DNA of 37,988 bases from Candidatus Saccharimonadota bacterium (lineage in GTDB: Bacteria > Patescibacteriota > Saccharimonadia > Saccharimonadales > Saccharimonadaceae). A program made the translations under genes and the position numbers. Position 1 is the first letter of the stretch, and each line of letters starts with the position of its first letter. The notes beneath the pieces were generated by a model that worked only from the letters and a program-made list of their open reading frames with translations, did not search any database and was not told where the DNA came from. The DNA lies in NCBI GenBank assembly GCA_017404515.1, contig JAFRCG010000026.1, positions 1 to 37,988 on the forward strand, read 5' to 3'. Shown here one piece after another: positions 1 to 37,988 of this stretch.

Positions 1-114
1 CAGTGATAGTAACGCGTATCTCTTGTACATGGATAGTAACTCTCTCCTCCCCCAGCATAATGTTAATAAAGCCCTCGGGTTTGCTCTCCACTGTGTCTCC
101 TACTCCACCAAATA
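1..114 (+). other. FISUMP-like C-terminal cassette C0 (cut by the window edge)
   Basis: This is the last part of a variable surface-domain cassette. Frame 2 reads SDSNAYLLYMDSNSLLPQ and then a tail with GFALHCVSYSTK, matching the end of the other cassettes (AYxL..., NPQ..., GFSLRCVS). It runs into the next 26-bp repeat in the exit frame (YPSVSAFVC) and stops 15 bp beyond that repeat. There is no promoter, start codon or ribosome-binding site. It is a partial cassette because the window begins inside it. The FISUMP assignment is by motif recall. Confidence 0.7.
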
Positions 115-140
115 CCCGTCGGTATCCGCTTTCGTATGTA
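115..140 (+). repeat. 26-bp cassette repeat, copy 1
   Basis: The sequence begins CCCGTCGGTATCC and ends CGTATGTA. It is identical or nearly identical at nine places in this window (115, 498 inverted, 36533, 36746, 36972, 37179, 37396, 37616, 37848). It marks the start of every cassette and encodes RRYPLSYV in the entry frame. All three forward frames are open through it. Confidence 0.92.
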
Positions 141-320
141 TTTGCTGGGCAGTATAGTTGGGCCGCTAGTAAGCTAGGCAATCAGAATGAATATGGATTC
201 TCATGGAGTAATACAGCAGTAAACCAAAACGATGCCCGCAGGCTTTATATCAATGGCGGCTCTGGCTTAGTTGATAGCGATATTACTAAAGCTGGCGGTT
301 TTCCTCTCCGTTTCATCTTA
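115..320 (+). other. FISUMP-like C-terminal cassette C1
   Basis: The cassette starts with the shared 26-bp repeat (115-140). In the entry frame it reads TRRYPLSYV, then FAGQYSWAASKLGNQNEYGF, a WSNTAVNQNDARRLYI stretch, and ends GGFPLRFIL. The pattern SG/AG-x-Y-x-W, WSxTA and GFxLR fits the other cassettes. It ends abruptly near 320, where a cassette of opposite orientation begins. There is no start codon or promoter of its own, so it is probably silent where it lies. Confidence 0.7.
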
Positions 321-523
321 GCGGAGAGACTGCCCATTGGTCTTGCCGGTGCTATATTGAGGATCAAGAAAGCTAGCATATGTATATAAGAAGTATGCCT
401 CACCAGCATTGTTGGCTGTGATGGACCACCAATACCCACGGGAATTCTGACCATCTACTAAACCATAGCCATTTAGCCAGTAGTAGACACCTGAGAATAC
501 ATACGAAAGCGGATACCGACGGG
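321..523 (-). other. FISUMP-like C-terminal cassette C2 (inverted)
   Basis: Read on the minus strand from the inverted repeat at 498-523: ARRYPLSYVFSGVYYW, then LNGYGLVDGQNSRGYWWS, an ITANNAGEAYFLY stretch, DPQ, and GQSLR followed at once by TAA. It is a good match to the cassette consensus (SGxYxW, GYWWS, AYxL, GxSLR). The stop falls where the tail is joined to the tail of C1. It lies downstream of the HdeD-like gene and the palindromic element on the same strand, so read-through transcription from there is conceivable. Confidence 0.72.
498..523 (-). repeat. 26-bp cassette repeat, inverted copy
   Basis: This is the reverse complement of the repeat at 115-140 and 36533-36558. Together with the adjoining palindromic element it forms one long unit (about 498-684) that reappears in inverted orientation at 36374-36558. 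Confidence 0.92.
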
Positions 524-16448: not shown

Positions 16449-16883
16449 TTACAACCAAGTGTCGTAATTATCATCAAAATCTGGATATTCTCCTTCCGCG
16501 TCATCCGGAATCCGGATGAATCTGGGTTTAATGTTTCTTTCGACAAAAATCGGTATTATCCGAGTTCTGACACCACTGCAGCGGATGAACGAGTAGACAT
16601 CTTCACCATTGCCGCTTTTGCCTTGATATTCAGCCATAGCAAAGAGTGGTAAATCCAGGTTTTTCCCGTGCTGCCTGATCTTAGTGGTGATAATCTTTTT
16701 GATATTATCATCCACGATGCAGGCGGCGGTAGTGTGATAATCACCGCTTTGCAATCGATCTATTATCTCCATACGATTTTTTTCTGGCTTGTAATCTACC
16801 AGATTGCCCATTTCGTCATAGGCTTTGACCGTATTGGGAGTCAGATTTACTATTTCTCTTCTCATTTCTAGTCTTTTAGACAC
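16449..16883 (-). CDS. Unrecognised protein (144 aa), orphan gene upstream of fusA
   Basis: I do not recognise this protein. It is 144 residues and soluble. The N-terminal part is basic (MSKRLEMRREIVNLTPNTVKAYDEMG), the middle has DDNIKKIITTKIRQHGKNLDLP and a beta-rich YSFIRCSGVRTRIIPIFVERN, and the last 20 residues are acidic and aromatic. There is no membrane segment. The GTG start is preferred because GAGG lies 4 nt upstream within AAAGGGGTGAGG; an internal ATG (residue 7) has no such site. It has a consensus promoter (16933-16961) and a terminator of its own, standing alone between gatB and fusA. The Val-Asn-Leu-Thr-Pro-Asn start is reminiscent of small phage-like proteins, but that is weak. 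Confidence 0.72.
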   Translation of the reverse strand: MSKRLEMRREIVNLTPNTVKAYDEMGNLVDYKPEKNRMEIIDRLQSGDYHTTAACIVDDNIKKIITTKIRQHGKNLDLPLFAMAEYQGKSGNGEDVYSFIRCSGVRTRIIPIFVERNIKPRFIRIPDDAEGEYPDFDDNYDTWL

Positions 16884-35827: not shown

Positions 35828-36235
35828 TTAAGCAATATTTTTAGCTCTTGCTAGTCTCTTGGAGGCTACAAAAGCGGTAGCAAGTCCACAAACTAGGGCA
35901 AGTGGCAAAAGTTCTTCTGGACCAGTTTCTGGTACTGTACTCTGTGGCTTAGCAGTATTTTGAGTAGTAGCTGGTTTAGCAGGCTCCTCTGTAGTTTTGC
36001 TAACACCTTCGGTAACAGGGGCAGGTTGTTCCTCTGCGGCCTTTTCACGAGAGGTGGCATCATCTAGTGCAACCTGAGTAGTGCTATCATTTGCCTCAGT
36101 CTCGGTACGGCTACCAACAATGGCAATAATAGCCCAAGCAGCAATACCGAGCACGATTACGGCAATAGCCGTAGTGATAATAATTGTTCTCATACGCTGC
36201 TGCTTATCTTCAGCGTTATTATATTCGTATTCCAC
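35828..36235 (-). CDS. Surface protein with N-terminal membrane helix and C-terminal LPXTG-like sorting signal
   Basis: This 135-residue protein starts at the GTG at 36235 (GGGAG 8 nt upstream); a TTG 15 bp earlier is a weaker choice. Residues ~17-41 (RTIIITTAIAVIVLGIAAWAII) form a transmembrane helix. The middle is a Thr/Ala/Glu/Pro-rich disordered stalk (EEQPAPVTEGVSKTTEEPAKPA). The C terminus has VPETG, a hydrophobic stretch (LLPLALVCGLATAFVA) and a positive end (SKRLARAK): the three parts of a sortase signal, here VPXTG rather than LPXTG. It has no other domain, so it may be a stalk or spacer protein. It has a consensus promoter and its own terminator. It is the nearest gene to the right cassette array and reads away from it. 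Confidence 0.78.
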   Translation of the reverse strand: MEYEYNNAEDKQQRMRTIIITTAIAVIVLGIAAWAIIAIVGSRTETEANDSTTQVALDDATSREKAAEEQPAPVTEGVSKTTEEPAKPATTQNTAKPQSTVPETGPEELLPLALVCGLATAFVASKRLARAKNIA

Positions 36236-36250
36236 GATAAAAACTCCCAA

Positions 36251-36373
36251 AAATTAATAAATTTGAATAGATAATTTCATTATAGCATTGTTTTATTAAA
36301 AAGTCAATGGTTTGATTGTAATTCTCGTAAAATGCAAGTTATGAAGGTATGAAGCAGGTCCTGGCATGAGTAC
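36251..36373. other. Intergenic stretch before the right array
   Basis: AT-rich leader and promoter of the divergent surface-protein gene, then ~65 bp in which I see no ORF, plus-strand promoter or hairpin apart from the beginning of the palindromic element. Confidence 0.5.
36279..36307 (-). promoter_or_regulatory. Promoter of the sortase-signal protein gene
   Basis: Minus strand TTGACT (36307-36302), 17 bp ending TGC, TATAAT (36284-36279). It points away from the array; no good plus-strand promoter was found between here and the palindromic element. Confidence 0.8.
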
Positions 36374-36513
36374 GGGGGCCTGTATAAAACAGGCTACTAG
36401 AGTTTGGGACTTTGGATTTGCTCATTTTTACAACGATAGTTGTAAAAATCACAAATCCAAAATCTGGTCTAAATCTCATTGCAAACTCTAGTAGCCCTGT
36501 TTTATCGGCCCCC
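36374..36513 (+). repeat. Palindromic array-boundary element, right copy
   Basis: This is a 140-bp nested palindrome, inverted relative to 544-684 and almost identical to it. Outer arms of ~32 bp begin and end in GGGGGCC/GGCCCCC. The central dyad is ATTTTTACAAC, 4 nt, GTTGTAAAAAT (36424-36449). Between it and the first repeat the two copies differ by a C5 tract here versus C6 on the left (G6 at 543-548), which shifts the reading frame into the first cassette. It precedes cassette R1 directly. Confidence 0.85.
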
Positions 36514-36532
36514 TCCTTCTATTCCACCGGTG

Positions 36533-36745
36533 CCCGTCGGTATCCGCTTTCGTATGTAATATCTGGGAGATATTTTTGGAATGAAGGTAGGCTTTATGGA
36601 CAAGGTAATGACGGTGATGTTCAATTTATGTCTAGCACATCTATTTCTGATACTTAAGGTTCATTTCTGGTCATATATGGCAGTGTTTTGGATACTCAGA
36701 GAAGCTCTAACAAACTTCATGGCATTAATCTCCGCTCCACAATAG
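36533..36745 (+). other. FISUMP-like C-terminal cassette R1 (interrupted by a stop)
   Basis: Begins with the repeat (36533-36558): ARRYPLSYVISGRYFW, then NEGRLYGQG and a divergent core with a TAA at 36655. The end INLRSTI continues in frame into the next repeat. Unit length is 213 bp (3n). The internal stop and the lost GYWWS motif suggest a decayed cassette. Confidence 0.68.
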
Positions 36746-36971
36746 CCCGTCGGTATCCGCTTTCGTATGTAATTGCTGGATTTTATCGATGGCATGAGGG
36801 TAGTTTGGGGGGAATACAGGATGGTTATTCATACTGGTGGGCCTCTACGACTCTTGACGCTAGTGCTGCGAAAGCCCTATACATAGTAATTTACAGTACA
36901 CTTGCTCCCCAGAACGGTGGCAGCAAACTCCTCGGATTTCCTCTCTGCTGCGTCTCCCACTCCATGCTATA
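36746..36971 (+). other. FISUMP-like C-terminal cassette R2
   Basis: Repeat at 36746-36771. Reads ARRYPLSYVIAGFYRW, HEGSLGGIQDGYSYWWAST, KALYIVIYSTLAPQ, then GFPLCCVS. Unit length 226 bp (3n+1). It leaves in the exit frame (YPSVSAFVC) and stops in the next cassette. Confidence 0.72.
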
Positions 36972-37178
36972 CCCGTCGGTATCCGCTTTCGTATGTATAC
37001 TCAGGTCTCTACCGCTGGAGTTCTGGTGAGGTGTCCTATCAAGAGACCGCCGGCTGGTGGCCGTCTACTACAGCCAATAGTAATAGCAATATATACGACT
37101 TGTCCATGGGTAGCAGCTATCTCAACCCTCAGTCCAATGGCGTAAAAGATGATGGATTTTCTCTCCGCTTCATCTTTT
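36972..37178 (+). other. FISUMP-like C-terminal cassette R3
   Basis: Repeat at 36972-36997. Reads TRRYPLSYVYSGLYRW, SSGEVSYQETAGWWPSTTAN, NIYDLSMGSSYLNPQ, DDGFSLRFIF. Unit length 207 bp (3n). It continues in frame into R4, so two domains would be fused if expressed. Confidence 0.72.
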
Positions 37179-37395
37179 CCCGTCGGTATCCGCTTTCGTA
37201 TGTGTATTCTGGCAATTATGGCTGGTATGGAAGTCTGTATGGTCAAGGCTCTATTGGATACTGGAACTCTACTACAGCTAATGGTGCTAGTAATACATAT
37301 CACTTTAGCATAGATAATGGCAGTGCTGATCCCAGGGATACCCATAACAAAATTTACGGCTGGACTCTCCGCTGCGTCTCCCTCTTCACCAAATA
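37179..37395 (+). other. FISUMP-like C-terminal cassette R4
   Basis: Repeat at 37179-37204. Reads SRRYPLSYVYSGNYGW, YGSLYGQGSIGYWNSTTANG, NTYHFSIDNGSADPR, then WTLRCVSLFTK. Unit length 217 bp (3n+1), exit frame, stop 35-40 nt into R5. Confidence 0.72.
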
Positions 37396-37615
37396 CCCGT
37401 CGGTATCCGCTTTCGTATGCATTCTCAGGCACCTACGTCTGGGGCTATGGTAGTCTGCTCTACCAGGACTCCCGCGGGTACTGGTGGTCTACCGCAGCCT
37501 ACAATGATAGTGAAGCGTACAACCTGTACATGAATAGTAGCAGTCTCAACCCCCAGAGTTACTATGGTAAGGTCGGCGGGTTTTCTCTCCGCTGCGTCTC
37601 CTACTCCACCAAATA
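37396..37615 (+). other. FISUMP-like C-terminal cassette R5 (closest to the consensus)
   Basis: Repeat at 37396-37421 with one change (TATGCATT). Reads TRRYPLSYAFSGTYVW, GYGSLLYQDSRGYWWSTAAY, EAYNLYMNSSSLNPQ, GGFSLRCVSYSTK. Unit length 220 bp (3n+1), exit frame, then a stop. It best shows the FISUMP signature GYWWSTxA...AYxLxxxxxxxNPQ...GFSLRCV. Confidence 0.75.
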
Positions 37616-37847
37616 CCCGTCGGTATCCGCTTTCGTATGTATTGTCAGGGTTCTTCTATTGGGGTAACAATTATGGCCTAGCTGGCCTGGGCGATCAGGG
37701 AACGGGTGGTCACCTACATTCTGCAACACCGGATAGCGGCGTCAGTGATAATATGTACTATCTATACATAACTGGTTCTAATGTTATACCTCAAGGAAAC
37801 AATAACAAAACTTTTGGTTTCGCTCTCCTGCTCCATTTTCACCTTTT
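37616..37847 (+). other. FISUMP-like C-terminal cassette R6
   Basis: Repeat at 37616-37641. Reads TRRYPLSYVLSGFFYW, GNNYGLAGLGDQGTGGHLHS, YYLYITGSNVIPQ, then GFALLLHFHLF. The most divergent core (GYWWS lost). Unit length 232 bp (3n+1), exit frame. Confidence 0.68.
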
Positions 37848-37988
37848 CCCGTCGGTATCCGCTTTCGTATGTGTATTCAGGCTACTACTACTGGGGCAAT
37901 GGTAACCTGAATGGCCAGGACTCCCTCGGGTACTGGTGGTCTACCGCAGCCTACAGTGATAGTCGCGCGTACAGCCTGGCCATGAGTA
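37848..37988 (+). other. FISUMP-like C-terminal cassette R7 (cut by the window edge)
   Basis: Repeat at 37848-37873. Reads SRRYPLSYVYSGYYYW, GNGNLNGQDSLGYWWSTAAY, RAYSLAMS and then the window ends. It breaks at nearly the same cassette position at which the window's first base lies. Confidence 0.7.

Follow-up and report, generated by a model that had tools for sequence, protein, structure and literature searches.

Promoterless FISUMP domain ends as a probable DGR-fed silent archive in a Candidatus Saccharimonadota genome

A draft genome of a Candidatus Saccharimonadota bacterium (G000; 763 kb in 29 contigs, 98.2% complete) holds arrays of promoterless FISUMP-type domain ends joined by an exact repeat, and these units are very probably orphan variable repeats (VRs) of a diversity-generating retroelement (DGR). 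We consider it likely (at roughly 60%) that the arrays are a DGR-fed silent archive that takes part in recombination with an expressed gene. The window (i.e., the whole stretch of DNA analyzed, 37,988 bp) is contig C21 of this genome.

Cassette arrays in the window

Seven exact copies of CCCGTCGGTATCCGCTTTCGTATG were found on the forward strand (starts at 36533, 36746, 36972, 37179, 37396, 37616, and 37848), spaced by 213, 226, 207, 217, 220, and 232 bp; shuffled controls contained none. The array of seven units reported in an initial annotation, made from the window's sequence, is thus real (spacing, 207 to 232 bp), and its "identical 26-bp repeat" is exact over 24 bp, base 25 being T or C. 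Each unit has its own version of the peptide pattern RRYPLSY[VA]..SGxYxW..GYWWST..AYxL..NPQ..GFxLRC, in line with the earlier description of the units as different versions of one domain end.

The array is immediately preceded by F1, a dispersed hairpin repeat (36361 to 36532, +). Cassette 1 (36533 to 36745, +) consists of the repeat and a putative orphan VR with an in-frame stop at residue 41, and it differs from the template repeat described below at 55 of 117 non-adenine sites. Cassettes 2, 3, and 4 (36746 to 36971, 36972 to 37178, and 37179 to 37395, all +) are likewise divergent putative orphan VRs. Cassette 5 (37396 to 37615, +) derives from that template, with changes at 9 of 118 non-A and 22 of 55 A sites, and cassette 6 (37616 to 37847, +) has a near-identical copy at C12:13458(-). 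Six of the seven units are complete; cassette 7 (37848 to 37988, +), also template-derived, is cut at the contig end. Because these final 141 bp are identical to C7:1-141, the array continues on C7, with repeats at 221, 446, and 870 (+) and at 1256 (-), and terminates there at an inverted F1 element.

A second array occupies the opposite end of the window (1 to 523; repeats at 115(+) and 500(-)). It comprises a spacer with the 3' end of a further cassette, cut at the contig start (1 to 114, +), a cassette ending in the palindromic center CTCTCCG...CGGAGAG at about 304 to 328 (115 to 328, +), and a convergent cassette with its repeat at 500 to 523 (329 to 523, -). An inverted F1 copy (524 to 685, -) forms the outer end of this array. 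Seven copies of F1 (the one before the seven-unit array and those at the outer ends of six other arrays) have a cassette joined to their right end; elsewhere, F1 occurs as one full-length copy without a cassette (C25:30237-30402) and as several partial copies. The window also encodes a small membrane protein (35828 to 36250, -) that has a helix at its N terminus and, at its C terminus, a VPETG-hydrophobic-basic tail resembling a sortase signal.

A genome-wide store of domain ends

Across the 763-kb genome, the repeat occurs 86 times (79 exact copies and 7 with one mismatch) at about 25 places and in both orientations, counts that are minima, with some joints uncertain, because many contigs of these draft metagenome assemblies end in arrays. 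A reversed control pattern gave no matches in the same genome. The stretches compared were those around arrays, the DGR loci, and the contig ends. Cassettes make up about 2.5% of this reduced genome. The initial annotation missed the second array and these 86 copies. Local tandem duplication was ruled out as the origin of the arrays, given that the units are 40 to 50% different and the repeat is exact and genome-wide.

The clusters are convergent, with tandem units on either side. Within a cluster, every forward unit precedes every reverse unit, so that the repeats lie outermost and the 3' ends meet. The cluster centers are palindromes of the form CTCTCCGC(N2-11)GCGGAGAG, which occur at ten cassette convergences and nowhere else; no empty palindromic target sites were found. 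The outer flanks consist of a few dispersed repeats, including F1, or of single-copy intergenic sequence adjoining tRNA-like sequence, terminator-like hairpins, or gene ends. An upstream gene frame is absent in nearly all units, and tandem units are often in differing frames. Only 3 in-frame stops were detected among 84 cassettes, very divergent ones included. By its anatomy, the 86-copy store is one of promoterless domain ends that are intergenic and devoid of expression signals, which supports the earlier proposal of promoterless alternative C termini for a FISUMP protein. A comparison with viral contigs gave no match. In all arrays, a motif CTCCnnCTnCA followed by 5 to 7 variable bases was seen 5' of nearly every repeat; the leader is constant in the sister species G120.

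A DGR locus with an AAC-rich template and a FISUMP target gene

A FISUMP family search of this genome revealed two full-length genes, on C13 and C15, the former with a neighboring reverse transcriptase (RT). We take FISUMP to be a C-type-lectin-like domain. A second RT, on C29, adjoins a cassette-like sequence without the repeat (C29:14061-14269) that has Asn (AAC or AAT) at nearly all variable positions; as read from its sequence, this is an AAC-rich DGR template repeat. DGR-type RTs carry the motif [I/V/L]GxxxSQ. The C29 enzyme has KGIVIGNLSSQ and YVDD (RVT_1 match, 3.3e-10), and that of G120 has IGIVIGNLSSQ and YVDD (best PDB match, 8ub7; 2.7e-28). Each RT is preceded by an accessory gene of 265 to 334 amino acids that had no Pfam or NCBIfam match among the families scanned and was not recognizable as Avd, the accessory protein of DGRs.

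Upstream of the accessory gene and RT on C29, the unit at 16875(-) has the sequence ...VSTGNKSFATLMNAYSLGNNSSGSTGARRYPLSYVFSG...GFALRCVSL* and is truncated by the contig end. The target FISUMP gene ends in this unit and carries the repeat in frame, frame integrity being visible for the last 96 codons only. At the start of C29, this end of the gene recurs in a longer copy (...NSVCPKGWRLPSGAGVSTGNKSF...). The target end differs from the C29 template at 3 of 118 non-A sites and 24 of 55 A sites, and the three non-A differences are at sites common with the cassettes. No further templates with the same 5' block were found, all matches of TATCCGCTTTCGTATG being cassettes or the single template.

In G120, the locus is contained in one contig, in the order FISUMP target gene, accessory gene, RT, and template. 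The target gene is an open frame of 698 amino acids that has the repeat in frame and ends in the VR (TIGR02145 [FISUMP] match of 46 bits; cutoff, 41.65). Its VR differs from the template at none of 118 non-A sites and at 24% of A sites. A gene elsewhere with the repeat in frame, on which the initial annotation had made its reservoir reading depend, is therefore present at full length in G120 and, truncated by the contig end, in this genome.

Two further RT loci were observed. C13:942-4815 is a second DGR with its own 608-amino-acid FISUMP target gene, accessory gene, and RT; its VR is without the repeat, and no template was located for it. The third RT (C26:38876-39403) is without the DGR motif (QGSVLMD and YRDD), adjoins a Fic-like gene, and may be a defense-type RT.

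Adenine-specific changes in the cassettes

Compared with the C29 template, 28 cassettes are changed at 25 to 50% of adenine sites and at 2 to 9% of other sites. About 55 other cassettes are changed at 20 to 51% of non-A sites as well, and one unit is intermediate at 14%. These adenine-specific differences from the template show, at the sequence level, DGR-type mutagenesis. The TATCCGCTTTCGTATG 5' block and the CTCTCCGC 3' block of the template are present in every cassette; in the divergent ones, the repeat and the 3' end are exact and the remainder is 40 to 50% different. Since no known template fits 55 of the 84 cassettes, most of them being just 50 to 60% identical to one another, we have to assume former or lost templates. 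Among the 28 template-derived cassettes, many non-A differences are shared, and sites 43, 90, and 180 resemble adenines that an earlier template had and the current one has lost, which indicates that templates change. Similarly, a remote VR of Treponema denticola SP32 has been described as left over from an earlier type of template (PMC4891356). The DGR origin, with its RT, AAC-rich template, and adenine-specific changes, had escaped the initial annotation, as had the genome-wide, convergent layout in four or more species of the genus; its reading of promoterless alternative C termini, a crossover point, and a full-length gene with the repeat in frame was supported.

Within the 28 template-derived cassettes, mutated adenines are unevenly distributed among codons. 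None of the 28 is mutated at TAC codons 10 and 38 or at CAG codons 20 and 50, and 0 to 1 is mutated at AGT codons 33, 35, and 44; 15 of 28 are mutated at the variable AGT codon 14, and most AAC codons are mutated in >50%. NAC contexts are strongly mutated by the BPP-1 enzyme (PMC12875486), and the intact TAC codons therefore point to selection at the protein level. They could also reflect another context preference of this RT, and context bias could mimic part of a protein-level filter. The rare non-A changes (n = 67) include no stops, against about 9% expected (probability, about 0.002). With conserved-residue adenines unmutated and no stops, the template-derived cassettes look like former expressed tails. 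Cassettes carry the leader of the target gene (CCCGTCGG in this genome and CTCCACCGGCTCCACCAAAGCCCGCCGG in G120) and not that of the template. We infer that the template-derived cassettes are archived former tails that passed a protein-level filter.

About 60% of the differences in the divergent group are at third codon positions, compared with 20 to 40%, and stops are rare. This third-position excess and the near absence of stops indicate that the divergent cassettes also evolved under coding constraint, and they rule out, for this group, the decay of old copies of one sequence.

Recombination at the repeat

Contig C12 has cassettes X-Y, and the window together with C7 has X, two other cassettes, and Y. 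Between C12 and the window/C7, X and Y are 98% and 99% identical, respectively; the switch point is located inside CACCTTTTCCCGTCGGTATCCGCTTTCGTATGT, and the indel is bounded by the repeat, in agreement with the crossover role given to the repeat at the outset. In a four-gamete test of two-state non-adenine site pairs, all four combinations were found in 7 of 10 and 9 of 10. At the contig ends C1/C9 and C23/C28, each of two flanks (about 115 bp) leads, immediately beyond the repeat, into two different cassettes; these joints fit alternative arrangements in the population and could also be duplicated flanks. Judged from such comparisons, the arrays recombine at the 24-bp repeat and the cassettes are mosaic. 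The expressed VRs of G000 and G120 look as if they were written straight from the template (3 and 0 non-A differences, respectively) and not from a divergent cassette; hence, no recall event was seen.

Proposed origin and function of the cassettes

In our model, the DGR RT would copy the AAC-rich template repeat (C29:14061-14269) with mutation of its adenines, and the mutated copy would be written into the C-terminal FISUMP domain of the neighboring surface-protein gene. Copies of the variable end, together with the 5' leader of the gene itself, would then be put into intergenic sites, giving rise to tandem and convergent arrays. Deposition may proceed by gene-end copying or by retro-insertion at the 3' motif CTCTCCGC. 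The landing site may be a hairpin or the CTCTCCGC end, which occupies the place of the DGR initiation motif. The store would act as a silent reservoir from which recombination via the repeat and the common 3' end could bring old tails back or mix them anew, as in Borrelia vls. More tentatively, at slightly less than even odds, the system may learn in two stages: the DGR would invent tails, working ones would be archived as silent cassettes, and recombination at the species-specific repeat would recall or re-mix them.

The cassettes may instead be dead ends of misdirected mutagenic retrohoming, comparable to processed pseudogenes and without donor function, i.e., ectopic VR copies inserted beside hairpins and CTCTCCGC sites. 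Their intergenic positions beside hairpins, terminators, tRNAs, and gene ends are consistent with such an origin, as is the absence of any recall event among our observations; convergent pairs around CTCTCCGC..GCGGAGAG palindromes fit priming at a palindromic target, and 5'-extended copies with differing break points occur at the C29 start, on C12, and at C16:10443. We nevertheless consider this unlikely in view of the protein-level filter with no stops in the 67 rare non-A changes, the scarcity of stops (3 in 84 cassettes) even in very divergent units, the exact repeat and 3' end of cassettes that are otherwise 40 to 50% different, the share of a reduced genome taken up (about 2.5%), and a leader that belongs to the gene and not to the template.

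Less probable still is that the arrays are themselves the live target, all cassettes being overwritten in place by the DGR as remote VRs and expressed as short peptides or by read-through. All cassettes do share the TATCCGCTTTCGTATG and CTCTCCGC end blocks, template-derived cassettes sit between ordinary spacers within divergent arrays, and remote DGR targets are known (PMC10907252 and PMC4891356), but nearly all units are without an upstream gene frame and the frames often differ among tandem units. Movement by a site-specific recombinase recognizing the repeat, as in integrons, is highly improbable: unrelated cassette content, exact ends, and the variable 5 to 7 nucleotides between the CTCCnnCTnCA motif and the repeat (resembling a recombinase overlap) would fit, but the only tyrosine recombinases found are two of 301 to 314 amino acids, Xer-like by eye, and the cassettes are truncated gene ends with varying 5' break points and with overlaps that differ within an array.

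Relation to known diversity systems

The proposed archive shares with DGRs of the BPP-1 type and with the cellular DGRs of Patescibacteria, which have their own DGR clade (clade 2 in PMC8144416), the RT, accessory gene, and AAC-rich template, the adenine-specific changes, and a C-terminal variable domain that ends the target gene. It differs from them in its dozens of gene-less extra VRs, genome-wide arrays, and central palindromes, and in an accessory protein that matched no Pfam or NCBIfam family among those scanned. Some DGRs are known to have several target genes (PMC10907252). Remote or left-over targets in Treponema denticola SP32 (PMC4891356) and Thiohalocapsa (PMC10907252) likewise have a VR away from the template, including one remaining from a previous template; however, each of those VRs belongs to a complete target gene, of which a genome has one or a few, and the units described here are promoterless domain ends in arrays.

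As in Borrelia vls (PMC2780311), promoterless cassettes adjoin one another and are homologous to one part of an expressed surface-protein gene, with short direct repeats at the cassette ends and recombination. Unlike vls, the cassettes would be fed by a mutagenic RT and are spread over many loci in both orientations, and transfer to the gene is inferred. Integron arrays also consist of exchangeable modules with constant ends; here, the modules are the ends of one protein domain, and no integron integrase was recognized. Our searches of open-access papers turned up no account of silent VR cassette arrays or of such a combination of two known diversity systems (a DGR and shared-repeat shuffling).

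DGRs have been described as overwriting one target, so that the next round erases any successful variant; in the present arrays, dozens of variants that had apparently been functional are retained. If recall occurs, one system would combine the two main routes by which bacteria diversify their surfaces, targeted hypermutation and silent-cassette recombination, and would do so in small bacteria with a poorly understood partner recognition. Two-stage learning would provide a heritable repertoire of tested binding tails beyond the reach of the current template. As a fossil record of past templates, the cassettes make template evolution and the direction of transfer open to long-read testing.

Arrays in the sister species and the genus

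G120 has about 50 cassettes with its own exact repeat and the same gradient from template-like to divergent units as in this genome. Two other species, G008 and G030, have 23 and at least 25 cassettes, respectively, with repeats that encode a similar peptide in different codons. Arrays with the species' own repeat are thus present in at least four species of the genus; as the repeat of each is nearly or fully exact, it is homogeneous within species and different between them. Of 174 genomes of the genus, 166 had matches in a profile search, with >70 first-look candidates in eight of them; full-length genes are part of these counts, and not every candidate is a confirmed cassette.

One contig of the goat duodenum MAG RGIG2326 (G120:C31) is 99.8% identical to C6 over 3.2 kb, and its three cassettes match those of C6. 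Because the remainder of this MAG is about 67 to 75% identical to our genome, we read the contig as a stray one of the window's species; exchange between species was accordingly rejected, this being the sole exact match elsewhere. The identity of the C6 array in the stray contig indicates that not every array changes fast. In G008, long inverted repeats (CTTCCGAATC...GATGTTCGGAAG) unlike the palindromic centers described above lie between cassettes (C32:9067-9230).
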